From Thiomicrospira aerophila AL3 (GTDB taxonomy: Bacteria; Pseudomonadota; Gammaproteobacteria; Thiomicrospirales; Thiomicrospiraceae), in the NCBI RefSeq assembly GCF_000227665.2, contig NZ_CP007030.1:434001-498000 (forward strand): a DNA stretch of 64,000 bases. The letters run 5' to 3'. The notes beneath the pieces are model-generated. The model did not search any database. It was not told the origin of the DNA and saw only the letters and a program-made list of their open reading frames with translations. Of this stretch, positions 52,823 through 60,422 are shown piece after piece; the first letter of the stretch is position 1, and each line of letters starts with the position of its first letter. The translations under genes were made by a program, and so were the position numbers.

Positions 52823-53599
52823 ATGTTGATGTTGATTTCACCAGCGAAAGCGCTAGATGAAACCCCGCGCCCCACTGATTTAGCGATCACTGAAGGTCGC
52901 TTTATGACGCAGGCTCACGCCTTAATGCAAGCGCTACAACCGCTTGGACCGGTTGAGTTAAGTCAGTTGATGCATATTAGCGATGAATTGGCGGAATTGA
53001 ATTTTCAGCGCAACCAGACCTGGTCAGTGCCCAAAGCAGATGATGCGGCGGCAAAACAGGCCTTGCTGATGTTTAAGGGCGATGTCTATCAGGGTTTGGA
53101 CGCGTCGAGTTTGACTGAAAAAGGTTGGGCTTATGCGCAGCAACATCTGCGGATTTTGTCGGGTTTGTATGGCTTATTGCGCCCAACGGATTTGATGTTG
53201 CCTTATCGGTTAGAAATGGGCACTAAGTTTAACAATAGCCAGGGCAAGGATTTGTATGCCTTTTGGGGGGAACAGATTACCCAAGCCGTTAACGATGATT
53301 TGACCCAGGCGCAAGGCCCGTTGGTGAATTTGGCGTCGAACGAGTATTTTAAAGCGGTCAAGCCGAAAAAACTCACCGTGCCGGTGATTACGCCACAGTT
53401 TAAAGATTGGAAAAACGGTCAGTATAAGATGATTAGTTTTTATGCCAAAAAAGCGCGTGGCTTGATGGTGCGTTATGCGATTGACCATCAGCTGCAAGAC
53501 GTGGAAGGTTTAAAACATTTTGATTATGCCGGCTACCAATTTGCGCCGGCATTATCGAGTGAAAAAGATTGGTTGTTTACCCGCGATCAAGCCGTTTGA
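52823..53599 (+). CDS. yaaA: Peroxide stress protein YaaA (DUF328)
   Basis: A 258-residue YaaA. Family landmarks are [11 protein letters not shown], the [14 protein letters not shown] segment, [34 protein letters not shown] and the C-terminal [17 protein letters not shown]. YaaA lowers intracellular free iron under peroxide stress in E. coli and binds DNA. It converges with the GGDEF-EAL gene, and the two overlap by 13 bases at their ends. Confidence 0.94.
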
Positions 53600-56184
53600 T
53601 TTGCAAATAATGCGGTTAAAGCGTCAGATTTTAATGGTTTGGCATAATAGTAACCTTGAATAAAGTCACAGCCATGCGTGCGTAGAAACTCAGCTTGTTG
53701 CTGATTTTCTACGCCTTCGGCAATGGTCTGGTAACCTATCGCTTTTGCCAGTGAAATTATGGCTTTGCACACCGCCTCATCTTCCTCATCAATGCCAATT
53801 TCATCAACAAATGTCTTATCAATTTTTAATGTATTCAGCGGGTATCTTTTTAGATAGCTGAGTGATGAATAACCTGTGCCAAAATCATCCAGCGCTAAGC
53901 TTACTCCCAATCGACGCAATGATTGAAAAATCATTAATGCCTTTTGGGGCTGTTCCATTGCAATGCGCTCAGTGATTTCTAGTTCAAGCTGACAAGCATT
54001 GATAGTCGGATGCTTGGATAAATGTTGTCGAATTCGCTCTACAAAGTCAGAACGAATCAGTTCGCGCGCTGAAATATTGACCGATAGGGTTAGGTTTGGG
54101 TGTTCACCGCTCAGGGTTTGCAGGGTGGTAAGTGCTTGGCTTAAAACCCAGTCGGTGAGGTCGATGATAAAATCAGAACGCTCGGCTACCGGAATAAACA
54201 CTTCCGGTGATACAGTGCCCATTTCGGGGTGCTGCCAGCGAATCAGGGCTTCAAAGCCGGTGAATTGGTTCTGTTCAAGTGCATATTGAGGTTGAAACAC
54301 CAATACAAACTCATTGCGTTCAATCGCATAACGCAATTCAGTTTCAATGTTAACGGTGCGCGTTAGTTGAGTTTCGAGTTCATTTTTAAATACATACACA
54401 CTGTTGCGTCCAGATTGCTTGGCGTGATACATGGCGAGGTCGGCATGTTTTAATAGGGTGTTGTAATCCTGTGCATCGTCGGGAAATAACGCGATGCCAA
54501 TCGATGCTGAAATGTGAAGATTGGCGTCTTGGATTAGATAGGGTTCGGCGAGGGTCGTCACCAAGCGTTCACCTAAATCTAGACTGTTAAAAGGGTTGAG
54601 TCTGGGGAATAGGATGGCAAATTCGTCACCGCCTAAGCGCGCTAAGGTGTCCTGAGGTCGTATTAATTGGTTGATGCGCTGCGTGACTTGTTTGAGCAGT
54701 AAATCCCCCATATCGTGTCCATGCACATCGTTTACTTCTTTAAAGTGATCCAAGTCAATAAACATTAAACTAAAGGCAATCGGTTCGCGTGAGGCCTCGC
54801 TAATGAGTTGTTCAGTGCGTTCGCGCAATAACAGACGATTCGCTACGCCGGTTAAACCATCATAAAACGCGAGATGCAGAATTTCATCTTCAGCTTGCTT
54901 TTTGGCGGTAATATCATTGAACACACCCAGATAGTTAATCAGGTTACCCTGAGTGTCTTTGATCGCGGAAATGGAGAGCTCCTGCGGGTAAATCTCACCC
55001 GATTTACGTTTGTTCCAAATTTCGCCACGCCAATGACCAAAGCGCAGAAGGTTGTCCCAAAAGGTCTTGTAGAATTCAACTGAATGCCGACCTGAGGCTA
55101 AAAAACGCGGATTTTTTTTCCAGCATTCTTGTTCTGTGTAGCCGGTGATGTGCTCAAAGGATTTATTAACTGACAAAATGCACCCGTCCGGGTCACAGAT
55201 CATTATACCATCCTGGCCTTTTTTAAATATTTCATTCGAAATCGTAAGCTGTTTTTCGTGTTCGGTTTGCTCTGTGATGTCATAGGTAATGCCGCCGACT
55301 GCAAAGACCTGGTTGTTCGAATCAAACAGTGGAAATTTATCCGTCAAGAAATAGAAAATTTTGCCATCTCTAACCATGTCCTCTCTGAGTTGCAGGGGCT
55401 TTTGTGAACGAATTACTTCGATATCATTTTGAAAATGACGATTTGAGTCCTGCAAAGACATTAATTGTTCACGCGTTTGGCCGATGACGTCAGACGGGGT
55501 GGCTAAGCCGTACATGTTTGCAACCTTTTGATTAGCGAGTAAACACTTTCCATCAGAGTCAAAGGCATAAATCATCACCGAGCTATGATCCAAAATGCCT
55601 TGAAACATGTGCCAGTCTTTTTGGCGCTGATATTGGGCGGTTAAATCCATAATGGTGATGATGAATTGACGTTCATCAAGCTGATCAATCACTGGTTTGA
55701 TCGGCATAATACTGACTTTTACCGGAATGCGCTGGGCTTGTATTTCACACTCAAAATCAGCCGATAAGGCCTCCTGATTTTCGCGGTCGTTTAAGCGATT
55801 AAATAACCATTGACTGTTGTTTTTGCTTAAAAAGCGAAAGATTGAGTGATGGCTTAAATGGCGTGTCGTTCGGTGGGTAAAAAACAATTCAGCTTGATGG
55901 TTATTATCAAGAATAATGCCAGCTTGATCGAGCAATAAAGCCGGGATGGGTAAGTGCTCAAACAGTTTTTTATATTGGACCTGTTGGTGATCCAATTTGA
56001 GCTGGGTGTCTTGAAGTTGTTGATTTTGGACTTCCAGCTCGGCTAAATAGACCTGCATTTCTTCAACCAATGCCGACATATTCGCTTGCGAAAGCCGTTC
56101 GATATCGGTGAAATCGGGCCGGTCTTCTAACAATTGCTTCGCCCGTTGGCGTAAGGTGTCTTTATCTAGCGTGTTCATGGTCAT
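53587..56184 (-). CDS. PAS-GGDEF-EAL cyclic di-GMP protein
   Basis: An 865-residue signalling protein without membrane segments. After an N-terminal coiled coil come three PAS domains (about 70-185, 195-305 and 310-430, the last with [20 protein letters not shown]). The diguanylate cyclase domain has an intact [15 protein letters not shown] with the product-inhibition site RPQD five residues upstream. The phosphodiesterase domain has [45 protein letters not shown] and [11 protein letters not shown]. Both domains therefore look catalytically competent. Its ATG overlaps the CheB/CheR stop (TAATG), so it is translated together with the BLUF and CheB/CheR genes. Confidence 0.94.
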
Positions 56185-58700
56185 TATTGGTCACTAATAC
56201 CAGTTACATCGATAAAACTAGCCACAGCACCATGCTTGTCGCTTGAAGGTATTTTGTAAGGCAGAATCCGCAACAAGTAGCTCTTGTGGTTTTGGTGTAT
56301 CAATTCAGTTTCAAACGGAAGTGTGGTTTTTAAGGTTTGTTCAAAATAGTCGATTAAATGTTCGTTATCAAAACTGTGGTGCAAGTCGCTCAAAGGGCGT
56401 CCAAGGTCTGAATCACGTAACTTAAACAGCCCAACCGCATCGGGACTGAACCGGCTGATATTTAGATTGTGATCAACAAAGATGGTCGCTACGCCCACAG
56501 CCTTCGCCATGGTATCGAGGTCGGCATTTAATTGGTTAAGGCGTAGCACTTTTTCTTGGTATTCGGCATTGACCGTATTGAGCTCTTCGTTGACTGATTG
56601 CAGTTCTTCGTTTGAGCTTTGTAGTTCTTCGTTCGAGGCCATCAACTCTTCATTGGTGGCCTGCAGTTCTTCGTTAGAGGTTTCAAGCTCCTCAATCGTG
56701 GCTTGAAGGCTTTCACGGGTTGCCGCTAATTCTTGTTGTAACACCTCAATCCGTGCAGCGGTTTCATCATCGAGGTTAATGGTTTGGCTTTGCGGGTCAT
56801 TATCTTGCAAGGAAAGGGGTTCAAACAGCACCAAAGCAAATTTTTCGTCAGCATTGCTGCTAATCGGTCTGACGCAGACACGTAACAAGCAAGGATTTTC
56901 TGGTTCGAGTTCAAGTTTTAGGCGGTCAGAATAAAATATTTTTTGGTCTTTTAATGCTTTGAATAATAAAGCGGAAACCACGGAGATAAGCCCATCCGGT
57001 AAAATGCGGGTAATATCCATACTGGCTGCGCCGGCACGAATTTTATAAAAGGGTTTGACATCGCCGTACAGGTGAATGATTTCTTGATGATCGTTCACTA
57101 AAAAACCAGGCGGAGAATAGGCGCTAATCAATTGATGACTGGTTTCATCAAGTAGTGCGACTTCAGACGTTTCAAGTGCGTTCAGTTTGCTGAACTGCCT
57201 GGTTAGGCGAGGTTGGCGTTTCAGCGAGTTTTTACTATTGTCTAGGCCGATAAGTGGCATATTGACATAGTTTCTGCGGAAGATTTTGCTTTTTGCATGA
57301 ACCGTATCAAAGCCCTTGGCAATCGCGTTTATCGATTCACTCGAGCCTAAAAATAAATAGCCGCCGGGTTTTGTCGCGTATTGCAAGCTTTGCAAGGCTT
57401 TGTTTTGCGGTTCGGCTTGAAAGTAAATTAAAGTATTTCGACAGGTGACCAAATCCATTCGGGTAAAGGGCGGGTCTGCCAATAGGTTATGTTTGGCAAA
57501 TACCACGACTTGACGCAGCTCGGGTTTAACAATGTATTCACTACCGGATTTGCTAAAAAAACGTTGCAGACGTTCTGGGCTGACTTCAGCCGCAATCGAT
57601 TCAGGGTAATGACCGGCTGAGGCGAGTTCAATTGCTTGCGGATTGACATCGGTGGCGAATATTTTTAAATTCGGCCAGCGACGGGCACGTTCAAAGGCTT
57701 CAAAAAACAAAATCGCTATGGAGTAAACTTCTTCACCACTCGATATGCCTGCTGACCAGATACGAATGCCGTTGCCGTTATCAGCTTTGCTGACAATATC
57801 ATCTATCGCAATCGTTTGTAGGTCATCAAATGCAGGCGTGTCTCTGAAAAAACGGGTCACCGGTATAAAGAGTTCGCGTCTTAAATTTGCCAGTTCCGTG
57901 CGGTCTATCTCAAGTAGTTTGGCATAGTCTTTGACATCTGCTATGTGTTTAACTTGCATCCGCCGTTCAATCCGTCGGGTGACGGTGGCTTGTTTGTATT
58001 GGTGAAAATCAACGCCTGTGGTTTGCGCCAGATAGTGGAAAATTAAATGGGTGGGGTCTTCATAATCCAGGCCTGGTTGCGCCGTGTCTTGTTTAACAAT
58101 TTTTTGCGGATTTTTAATGTAGTCGAGGAGTCGGCTAGCAAGGTGTTCAGCATCTAACACGTCATCAATCAATCCGGTAGCAATTACGCTGTTTGGCATG
58201 CCGTTAAACTTGGCTTCTTTTGGTGATTGTGCCAATAAGAACCCGCCAGCTTCGTTAATCACATACGCACCGCGTGTGCCGTCTGAGCCTGTGCCTGAAA
58301 GAATAATGCCGATGGCCTTGTCGCTGTAATCTTCGGCCATCGAGGTGAAAAAGATATCAATTGGCAAGCTGAGTACATGCGGCGTTTTTTGGGTGAGTAC
58401 AAAATGACCGCTTACCACGCGCATAATCGTGCCAGCAGGAATCAAATAAACATGGTTGGGCTGAATCGGCATGCCTTCTTCAACCAGTTTAATTGGCATG
58501 ACGGTGTAGCGTCCGAGTAAATCGGCCATCATGCTTTTATGGTCTGGCGATAAATGTTGGATTACGATAAAGGGTAAACCGGTATCGGTTGGGCAAGCGG
58601 CAAAAAACTTTTCAAGCGCCTCAAGCCCGCCGGCGGAGGCGCCTAGGGCGACAACAAATCCACGGTATTTGGCGGGCTGGAGAGGATCGTTTGATTCCAT
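56184..58700 (-). CDS. CheB-CheR-PAS fusion (methylesterase/methyltransferase-like)
   Basis: An 838-residue fusion. The CheB methylesterase domain comes first ([44 protein letters not shown]). The CheR domain follows at about 210-470 ([42 protein letters not shown]). A long coiled coil built of NEELQ-type heptads (about 650-700) and a C-terminal PAS domain close it. No receiver domain precedes CheB. Such fusions are usually tied to non-canonical signalling and not to the classical flagellar adaptation system. The ATG at 58700 is preferred to the in-frame start at 58799 inside the BLUF gene. Confidence 0.92.
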
Positions 58701-58728
58701 AGATCTGTTCCTGATTATCGGGTGTATT

Positions 58729-59136
58729 TTATAAATGTTGGAATGCTTTGATGAGCATTTTTGCGGTGTTGGGCAGAATCCAGTCTTCGGTAAGATCAAG
58801 TTTATCTTTCAAGAGAATGTTGTGGGAGGATTGGCGCAGATGAGGGGATACATTGATAAATCGCATTGACCAACTACTAAAGCTTCGTTGATCTATCGGG
58901 CGGCTATATATTTGGCGAACATCATAGTGACGGAAGTCTTGTTTAATCCTGCTATATAAGGATTCAACATCGTGTTGTTCGCCTTCAAGAAGTTGTAAAA
59001 AAATCCCGTTGTTATAAAGTAGCAGTCCTGTTATCTGCTGCATAGAGTTAAAGTAAATAGCCTCATTGCGTAATTCTTCCAGTTCAATTTCCGTCATCAT
59101 GCTACTAGCACGACTAGTGTAAACAAGCTCAAACAT
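58729..59136 (-). CDS. BLUF-domain blue-light sensor
   Basis: A 135-residue BLUF (sensor of blue light using FAD) protein with no fused output domain. The photochemical residues fall at the canonical spacing: Tyr6 in FELVYTSRAS, Asn30, Gln48 in FLQLLEG, Trp89 and Met91 in SSWSMRF, corresponding to Tyr8, Asn32, Gln50, Trp91 and Met93 of the cyanobacterial PixD type. The C-terminal 40 residues supply the capping helices. The ATG at 59136 has AAGGA upstream. It heads an operon with the CheB/CheR fusion and the GGDEF-EAL protein, which are the likely output partners. Confidence 0.93.
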   Translation of the reverse strand: MFELVYTSRASSMMTEIELEELRNEAIYFNSMQQITGLLLYNNGIFLQLLEGEQHDVESLYSRIKQDFRHYDVRQIYSRPIDQRSFSSWSMRFINVSPHLRQSSHNILLKDKLDLTEDWILPNTAKMLIKAFQHL

Positions 59137-59189
59137 TATTTTTCCTTCTATGAACCAATTGGTCATATACTTTTGCTATTGACATGGTT

Positions 59190-59212
59190 ACTATTCATAA
59201 AATATGAATAGT
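59190..59212. promoter_or_regulatory. Perfect inverted repeat overlapping the start codon of the HTH gene
   Basis: ACTATTCATA and TATGAATAGT are perfect 10-base inverted arms around AAA. The right arm contains the ATG (59204) of the HTH gene, and the left arm lies in the region from which the BLUF operon must be transcribed. This looks like an operator for the adjacent repressor-like protein. Confidence 0.6.
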
Positions 59213-59587
59213 ATTTACGATATCAGGCGCCACAATGCGCAACTTCTTGTTAATTTTATAGGTAATAAAACGCTTTTTTCTGAAAGAATTGAGCGTTCGC
59301 CTACGCAGGTTAGCCGTATCTTGGGTTTGAATCCAACACGCAATATTGGAGAAAAATTTGCACGTCACATTGAGCACTGTTTTTGTTTGCCAAAATTTTG
59401 GTTGGACCAAACACACCAACAGCTTGAAACCGTTAAAGCAAATATTAATACCATAAATCAAGATCGCTATGAGCATCTACATCATGTGCTGTGCGAGCTT
59501 TACCAAGCGACGATTACTAAACATATAGACCAAACTACTTACAATATGCTCGTTGAAGTGTTTGAACATCATCAAAAAACAGTCTAA
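59204..59587 (+). CDS. Small phage-repressor-like HTH regulator
   Basis: A 127-residue protein. Residues 5-65 resemble the helix-turn-helix domain of lambdoid repressor-like regulators: IGNKTLFSERIERSPTQVSRILG as the HTH, then NPTRNIGEKFARHIEHCFCLPKFWLDQ, a conserved follow-on in this family. The C-terminal 60 residues are helical and lack the LexA-type peptidase domain, so autocleavage is not expected. It is divergent from the BLUF gene with 67 bases between the two start codons, and a perfect palindrome overlaps its own start codon. Repression of the BLUF operon and of itself is inferred. No strong Shine-Dalgarno is visible, so the transcript may be nearly leaderless. Confidence 0.7.
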   Translation: MNSIYDIRRHNAQLLVNFIGNKTLFSERIERSPTQVSRILGLNPTRNIGEKFARHIEHCFCLPKFWLDQTHQQLETVKANINTINQDRYEHLHHVLCELYQATITKHIDQTTYNMLVEVFEHHQKTV

Positions 59588-59756: not shown

Positions 59757-60422
59757 TTAGAAGCGGTAGGTAACCGCAAGTTGTAAAATAGGAAGGAAGT
59801 CGAGTTTTGCCACTTCGTCTTTTAGTTTACGTTCTTCGTTTTTGAGGGCGTCGTTTAGTGCTTGTTGTCGTGAGTTGTCATTAATAGTGCCATTTAAATT
59901 CACATCGGCGGCACCGGTAAAAATCGCGCCGACTTCAAATAAAGCCCCCCAACCTTGCTTCGGGCTGTGGCCCCAACCAAGTGAAAGTGTCGGTGCGTTA
60001 TCCCATTTTAGTTTGCCGTTAATGGCTACAGTTCCATCAAAAGTATCATCACCAACAGTCACTGTTCCGGATTCTCTTGCATTCGCGGTCAGTTCAAATT
60101 GGTTAATTGCATAGCCGGCCGACAAGAAAAAGCTGCCCTGAAATGGATGATAATTTAAGCCCAAACGGTGAATACCGCCATCGGCTTTAATTCTGTAGTT
60201 GACGTCGTCAACGCGATTAGTTTGATTTAAACCCATGCCACTTGAAACTGAACCGCGCGCGACTAAATAACTGTTAATAGGGTAGTTAAGCTCCAGGGTC
60301 GGACCGGCCAATAGACCATAGCCTATGCCGACACCCAGACCGCCATCGGCTTGCACCTGGGTAGCCATCATGCCTAGGCCGATTGCGCTGGCTAAAAGAC
60401 TGTTTTTTAATGCGTTTTTCAT
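59757..60422 (-). CDS. Outer-membrane beta-barrel protein (small, about 8 strands)
   Basis: A 221-residue protein with a signal peptide (MKNALKNSLLASAIGLGMMATQVQA) and a beta-barrel pattern: glycine-rich N-terminal strands GLGVGIGYGLLAGPTLELNYP, strand-loop repeats such as RLGLNYHPFQGSFFLSAGYAIN and LSLGWGHSPKQGWGALFEVGAIF, and the C-terminal Tyr-Arg-Phe. A basic and acidic helical stretch lies at about residues 188-205. It resembles OprF/OmpW-sized barrels but I cannot assign a family with confidence. It is a single gene with its own upstream region. Confidence 0.7.
   Translation of the reverse strand: MKNALKNSLLASAIGLGMMATQVQADGGLGVGIGYGLLAGPTLELNYPINSYLVARGSVSSGMGLNQTNRVDDVNYRIKADGGIHRLGLNYHPFQGSFFLSAGYAINQFELTANARESGTVTVGDDTFDGTVAINGKLKWDNAPTLSLGWGHSPKQGWGALFEVGAIFTGAADVNLNGTINDNSRQQALNDALKNEERKLKDEVAKLDFLPILQLAVTYRF

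Follow-up and report, generated by a model that had tools for sequence, protein, structure and literature searches.

What does a short blue-light sensor act on when it is encoded with a chemotaxis-type methylesterase-methyltransferase fusion and a cyclic di-GMP (c-di-GMP) enzyme, and what is there for such a fusion to methylate? Both questions are raised by a locus of Thiomicrospira aerophila AL3 contained in a stretch of 64,000 nucleotides (hereafter the window) of the complete 2.16-Mb genome. By sequence and Pfam, three minus-strand genes, each coding for a protein with intact active sites, follow closely upon one another in the order BLUF, CheB-CheR-PAS and PAS-GGDEF-EAL; 28 bases separate the BLUF stop from the CheB-CheR-PAS start, and the following two genes meet in a TAATG junction in which the stop TAA and the start ATG have one base in common, which confirms the operon-like array described in the initial annotation. 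The locus has four genes once a divergent repressor on the plus strand, overlooked in that annotation, is counted: position 59212, at which the locus had been closed, lies past the intergenic region and within the first bases of this opposite-strand gene. The reading that we favor, with a probability of roughly 0.45 for the whole, has two modules: light would act on expression through BLUF and the repressor, and the CheB-CheR protein would write on its own coiled coil and so tune the GGDEF-EAL protein.

The BLUF gene (58729-59136, minus strand; Pfam BLUF, 101 bits) encodes 135 residues if the start is put at 59136, which has a GGA-rich ribosome site in front of it and is preferred to the upstream ATG at 59166. 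The photochemical residues had been described as in register, and this was borne out: Y6, S8, N30, Q48, W89 and M91 match AppA Y21, S23, N45, Q63, W104 and M106 at a constant offset of 15, and they are invariant among the seven family copies. By its fold and the Tyr, Ser, Asn, Gln and Trp/Met set around FAD, the protein is a short BLUF photoreceptor for which flavin binding and a red-shifted photocycle are predicted. Its nearest solved relatives are 6w6z, 1x0p and PixD, its nearest sequence relative found is that of Thiomicrospira sp. ALE5, and it ends in a conserved C-terminal helix (W..PS.AKVLI.AF). It accounts for the only BLUF domain in the genome. Other arrangements of the domain were seen elsewhere: a genome of the same family (G024, L024:10240-13566) encodes a single protein made of a periplasmic-binding-like domain, PAS, GGDEF, EAL and a C-terminal BLUF, and G083 has 3 BLUF genes in tandem (L027:8831-10711).

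The second gene (56184-58700, minus strand) encodes 838 residues, numbered here from the Met at 58700, which Pfam, PDB matches and a predicted model resolve into CheB, CheR, a PAS-like region, a coiled coil and PAS_10 (Pfam scores: CheB 186 bits, CheR 185, CheR_N 52, PAS_10 74; PDB matches to CheR and CheB; model pLDDT 80, with both folds). No receiver domain stands in front of CheB among the Pfam matches, in agreement with the earlier description of a receiver-less CheB-CheR-PAS fusion; the domain therefore works like CheB, yet is not the chemotaxis CheB. In the methylesterase domain (58128-58652), the triad is S22, H49 and D140, of which all 38 homologues have the Ser and the His and 37 have the Asp. 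The methyltransferase (57288-58046), an N-terminal helical domain followed by the SAM-binding domain, keeps R286, E323/E324, D351 and N422 in 37 to 38 of 38 homologues, and the substrate-side, receptor-facing arginines of its N-terminal domain (RRxxRR) are invariant. PAS_10 (56202-56519) ends the protein. A second C-terminal PAS of about 130 residues, present in G002, G004, G011 and G046, is missing from the window protein (at 56184-56220) and from that of G008. In relatives, a gap of 390 to 460 bp that seemed to separate the CheB-CheR and GGDEF-EAL genes raised the suspicion of an additional gene, which was rejected, since the gap is this second PAS.

The third gene (53587-56184, minus strand) encodes an 865-residue PAS-PAS-PAS-GGDEF-EAL protein, and its last 13 bases (53587-53599) overlap the convergent yaaA gene. 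Sequence and PDB alignments confirm what had been stated of its catalytic and inhibitory sites: GGDEF, the I-site RxxD (RPQD, five residues ahead of GGDEF) and the EAL catalytic motifs are all intact. It thus has the residues of a bifunctional GGDEF-EAL enzyme, and catalysis is predicted. Its association with CheB-CheR extends well beyond this locus. In 16 of 38 CheB-CheR-coil loci, the next same-strand gene is a GGDEF and/or EAL gene, usually with overlapping ends, against a background of 10 in 446 for the other genes of these loci, and in 3 of the 38 (G103, G390 and G173), CheB-CheR-PAS-PAS-GGDEF-EAL is a single chain; the 38-locus sample leans on relatives picked by similarity to the window protein, though it includes many families of the class. 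Moreover, an N-terminal helix of the GGDEF-EAL protein (ELEVQN; 56014-56064, minus strand), singled out by motif enrichment, is a candidate docking element for CheB-CheR-coil partners: the motif ELE.QN occurs in 10 of 72 CheB-CheR gene neighbors versus 1 of 506 other open reading frames, and the single exception, a hybrid kinase, itself belongs to a CheB-CheR cluster, that of the paralogue in the window genome. CheB-CheR and GGDEF-EAL very probably work together. From the adjacency, the fusions and the common helix, it follows that the two were probably partners before BLUF joined, and they probably form an older, widespread unit; since the pair occurs in many genomes without BLUF, BLUF is best seen as an add-on in one family.

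A search for the three-gene order in other genomes, proposed as a check in the initial annotation, found it in 6 of 59 genomes of the Thiomicrospira family, belonging to three genera, so the notion that it is unique to one strain was rejected. BLUF of the locus type is present in G000, G002, G004, G008 and G011 and in 2 copies in G046, and 6 of these 7 BLUF loci have CheB-CheR-PAS and then PAS-GGDEF-EAL downstream. Conservation in five further genomes, at protein identities that fall to 62% for CheB-CheR and 37% for BLUF (and to 45% for GGDEF-EAL), means that the order is not due to chance. Outside the family, the picture is different. Among 369 genomes of the class, 48 have BLUF and 43 a CheB-CheR protein of the locus type, and the two were adjacent in 0 of the 10 that have both (the window's own genome excluded), a count to be read with the qualification that several draft genomes have the two on separate contigs, where adjacency across contig ends can be judged only in part. 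In a phylum sample of 80 BLUF-bearing genomes, 26 also have CheB-CheR, none nearer than about 40 kb among the matches listed. In total, adjacency was seen in 0 of about 36 other proteobacterial genomes with both genes. A CheB/CheR fusion as a partner of BLUF is not known to have been described, and a search of the open-access literature gave no description.

The most constant neighbor of BLUF is the divergent gene (59204-59587, plus strand), which lies back to back with it at a distance of 67 bases and adjoins BLUF of the locus type in 7 of 7 copies, including the one G046 locus that is without CheB-CheR; this constancy suggests transcriptional control. It encodes a Rep-like helix-turn-helix (HTH) repressor of 127 residues with an extra C-terminal helical tail. 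Its profile matches PDB 5d50 with E=1.5e-11, and the top Foldseek matches of its AlphaFold model (pLDDT 84) are the Rep chains of 5d50, at 42% identity over 73 columns; no Pfam family was matched. The DNA-binding domain is, by profile and modeled fold, homologous to the phage Rep of the Rep-Ant complex (5d50), and operator binding is predicted. Phage Rep is taken apart by a tetrameric antirepressor (PMC9638917), and in E. coli BluF directly antagonises BluR, a repressor from the neighboring gene (PMC3509220). Because Rep is undone by Ant and BluR is antagonised by BluF, antirepressor is the role that we prefer for BLUF, and that BLUF binds the repressor in a light-dependent way seems to us an even bet. 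The pairing is not obligatory, since one other genus of the family (G013, G017, G020 and G024) has repressors of this family without BLUF, with metE, pgm, GGDEF and P-II genes as neighbors and no theme common to them. On the far side of the repressor, the window has a gene for an outer-membrane-like protein (59757-60422) with sub-threshold similarity to CarO, which is found in G002 and is absent from the same place in G008 and G004.

Two sequence elements could serve as operators. A perfect inverted repeat, ACTATTCATA-AAA-TATGAATAGT, spans the start of the repressor gene (59190-59212), but is a weak candidate because it is perfect in the window alone and decayed in relatives. A dyad between the repressor and BLUF genes, TGACCAATTGGTTCA (59151-59165, minus strand), is kept in G002, G004 and G008 and is recognisable in G011 and in the second G046 copy, and nowhere else does the genome contain it in exact form. 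The dyad TGACCAATTGGTNCA is a better operator candidate than the perfect palindrome, though a short one, and its matches with 2 mismatches are no more frequent in the genome than those of a control. A scan for sigma-70 promoters gave scores no better than shuffles.

Comparison with G008 bears on what BLUF touches. Some 5 kb comprising CheB-CheR and GGDEF-EAL (window 53650-58700 against L019 of G008) are 88 to 98% identical in DNA, with sharp edges, and the flanking genes are 60 to 70% identical; at the protein level, CheB-CheR is 97% and GGDEF-EAL 95% identical, and BLUF only 66%. G002 and G008 have the first part of CheB-CheR in common at 94 to 100%. The signalling cassette of these two genes is, on the pattern of identities, the subject of a recent in-place exchange between species. 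An alternative to the repressor route is that lit BLUF binds CheB-CheR and/or GGDEF-EAL directly and switches their activity, the repressor merely autoregulating the locus. The togetherness of the three genes, in an order kept in six genomes, fits direct contact too, as do the C-terminal helix of BLUF conserved at the locus and the fusion of BLUF to PAS-GGDEF-EAL in G024; and BLUF action on EAL proteins in trans is known, as the initial annotation had stated, with PapB-PapA as a precedent in which signalling runs via the C-terminal helices of the short BLUF (PMC8846402). We nevertheless consider this unlikely. The exchange of the cassette beside a 66%-identical BLUF, in which a finely matched interface is not evident, is a mild argument against a tightly coevolved BLUF contact; G046 has a BLUF-repressor pair (L021) without CheB-CheR; and, among the matches listed, none of the roughly 36 other genomes with both genes places them together. 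The BLUF step is more likely to run via the repressor than via CheB-CheR. The pathway from light to methylation to c-di-GMP put forward in the initial annotation is thus supported in part: the linkage of the three genes is conserved in one family, and the evidence that CheB-CheR works with GGDEF-EAL is strong (16/38 adjacent, 3/38 fused); a step in which BLUF acts on CheB-CheR is the less likely part. That the BLUF core and the cassette downstream of it have recombined differently, and that a BLUF-repressor pair stands alone in L021, could also be taken to mean that BLUF and the repressor are an independent light pair and the two downstream genes a separate, accidentally co-transcribed unit, but the packing is tight and the order is kept in three genera, with BLUF identity as low as 37%, which makes that improbable.

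As to what is methylated, the coil of the CheB-CheR protein offers a candidate that the initial annotation had overlooked. Conservation and the model point to a glutamate ladder at residues 670-706 (56583-56693, minus strand) as a possible methyl-accepting segment: six Glu-Glu pairs, invariant or nearly so, stand exactly 7 residues apart on a predicted 93-residue helix, as Glu pairs do on the long helices of methyl-accepting proteins. Among 33 distant homologues, conservation is 45% in CheB, 44% in CheR, 18% in the middle PAS-like region, 29% in PAS_10 and 52% in the coil, whose core, at 80%, is the most conserved stretch of the protein. The protein has 58 Glu residues; 18 are conserved in at least 85% of homologues, and 13 of these fall in the ladder stretch. 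A ladder of at least 3 pairs is present in 39 of 39 CheB-CheR proteins versus 3 of 630 other open reading frames, all 3 from CheB-CheR neighborhoods. In the window ladder, EELQAT and EELMAS are exact matches to the E. coli methylation consensus E-E-x-x-A-S/T; the Glu pair is followed by Ser rather than Ala in most homologues, and the sites show almost none of the Glu/Gln exchange typical for chemoreceptor sites. The signalling tip of methyl-accepting chemotaxis proteins (MCPs; PF00015) is not among the Pfam matches of the protein. Taken together, the ladder and the invariant RRxxRR of CheR suggest that CheB and CheR have the coil of their own chain as substrate, a proposal that we advance tentatively and rate as somewhat short of even; the ladder could instead be conserved for coiled-coil assembly alone. 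No description of self-methylation by CheB-CheR fusions was found in the open-access literature. That CheB-CheR serves as an accessory adaptation enzyme for 12 chemoreceptors, bringing light into taxis with the nearness of GGDEF-EAL an incidental co-regulation, would account for the 12 MCP-signal matches in the genome and the retained receptor-facing arginines, but is quite improbable: the genome also encodes CheR and CheB separately, as a stand-alone pair whose CheB match is followed about 0.6 kb downstream by one for the MCP signal, and CheB-CheR-coil genes pair with GGDEF-EAL much more often than the background and form single chains with it in three cases.

Ladders also occur outside CheB-CheR proteins. 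At L045:8536-12937 (G000:C1:1494535-1498936), near a CheB-CheR paralogue, a gene for a 445-residue coil-PAS-PAS protein with a five-pair ladder and neither CheB nor CheR lies directly upstream of a hybrid kinase with an ELEIQN helix; this looks like the CheB-CheR/GGDEF-EAL unit, but with a kinase output and the substrate in trans. Two further reading frames that directly adjoin CheB-CheR genes (L076:8287-9570 and L081:4432-5919) have three-pair ladders of their own.

In the two-module reading, the repressor would hold down its own promoter and that of the BLUF operon; blue light would change BLUF, which would then bind the repressor and lift repression, as BluF does with BluR in E. coli. In the second module, CheR would add and CheB remove methyl groups on the glutamate ladder of their own coiled coil, with the PAS domains as further inputs, and the state of the coil would be relayed to the GGDEF-EAL protein at its N-terminal helix (ELEVQN) and shift that protein between making and breaking c-di-GMP. 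With BLUF and the repressor controlling expression and the coil tuning GGDEF-EAL, light would set the dose of an adapting c-di-GMP switch.

Receptor-less CheB-CheR-coil-PAS proteins are present in many proteobacteria. No paper on what they methylate was found in the open literature. The ladder, spaced like chemoreceptor methylation sites, is a specific candidate substrate; if it is one, c-di-GMP would be fed by a form of adaptation memory that resides elsewhere than in chemoreceptors. The locus ties the CheB-CheR module to blue light in non-photosynthetic chemolithoautotrophs, and the switch is likely to be the phage-type repressor. The wider generalization, that CheB-CheR-coil-PAS proteins are self-contained methylation memories that drive a docked GGDEF-EAL protein or kinase via ELE.QN and that in Thiomicrospira have come under BLUF antirepressor control, is possible but doubtful.

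Several known systems resemble the locus in part. Like E. coli BluR-BluF (YcgE/YcgF; PMC3509220), it has a BLUF gene beside an antagonisable repressor and an output link of the c-di-GMP type; BluR is MerR-like, however, and the Thiomicrospira repressor is a phage Rep-like HTH protein, and BluF is a BLUF-EAL protein with a dead EAL, whereas here a lone BLUF is accompanied by a separate, intact GGDEF-EAL. With the phage Rep-Ant pair of Salmonella (5d50; PMC9638917), it has in common the homologous N-terminal domain of the repressor (about 42% over 73 residues), but the Thiomicrospira protein is shorter and has another C-terminal tail, and in place of an Ant gene there is BLUF. PapB-PapA of Rhodopseudomonas palustris (PMC8846402) likewise combines a short BLUF with a separately encoded EAL protein, but PapA consists of EAL alone, whereas the Thiomicrospira locus has a triple-PAS GGDEF-EAL, a repressor and a CheB-CheR fusion. 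In domain order and active sites, the CheB-CheR protein of the window agrees with other CheB-CheR-PAS fusions; it differs from them in having BLUF and a repressor upstream and in the loss of the second C-terminal PAS. As in MCPs such as Tsr (PMC1079850), Glu pairs stand at 7 residues on a long helix, two of them in the exact E. coli consensus; unlike MCPs, there is no kinase-control hairpin, and the candidate ladder and the two enzymes, CheB and CheR, are parts of one polypeptide. Finally, CheR is tied to c-di-GMP in Pseudomonas CheR1-MapZ (5xly, a solved structure) as well, but there c-di-GMP-bound MapZ binds CheR1, whereas in Thiomicrospira the gene that includes CheR adjoins that of the enzyme which makes or breaks c-di-GMP.
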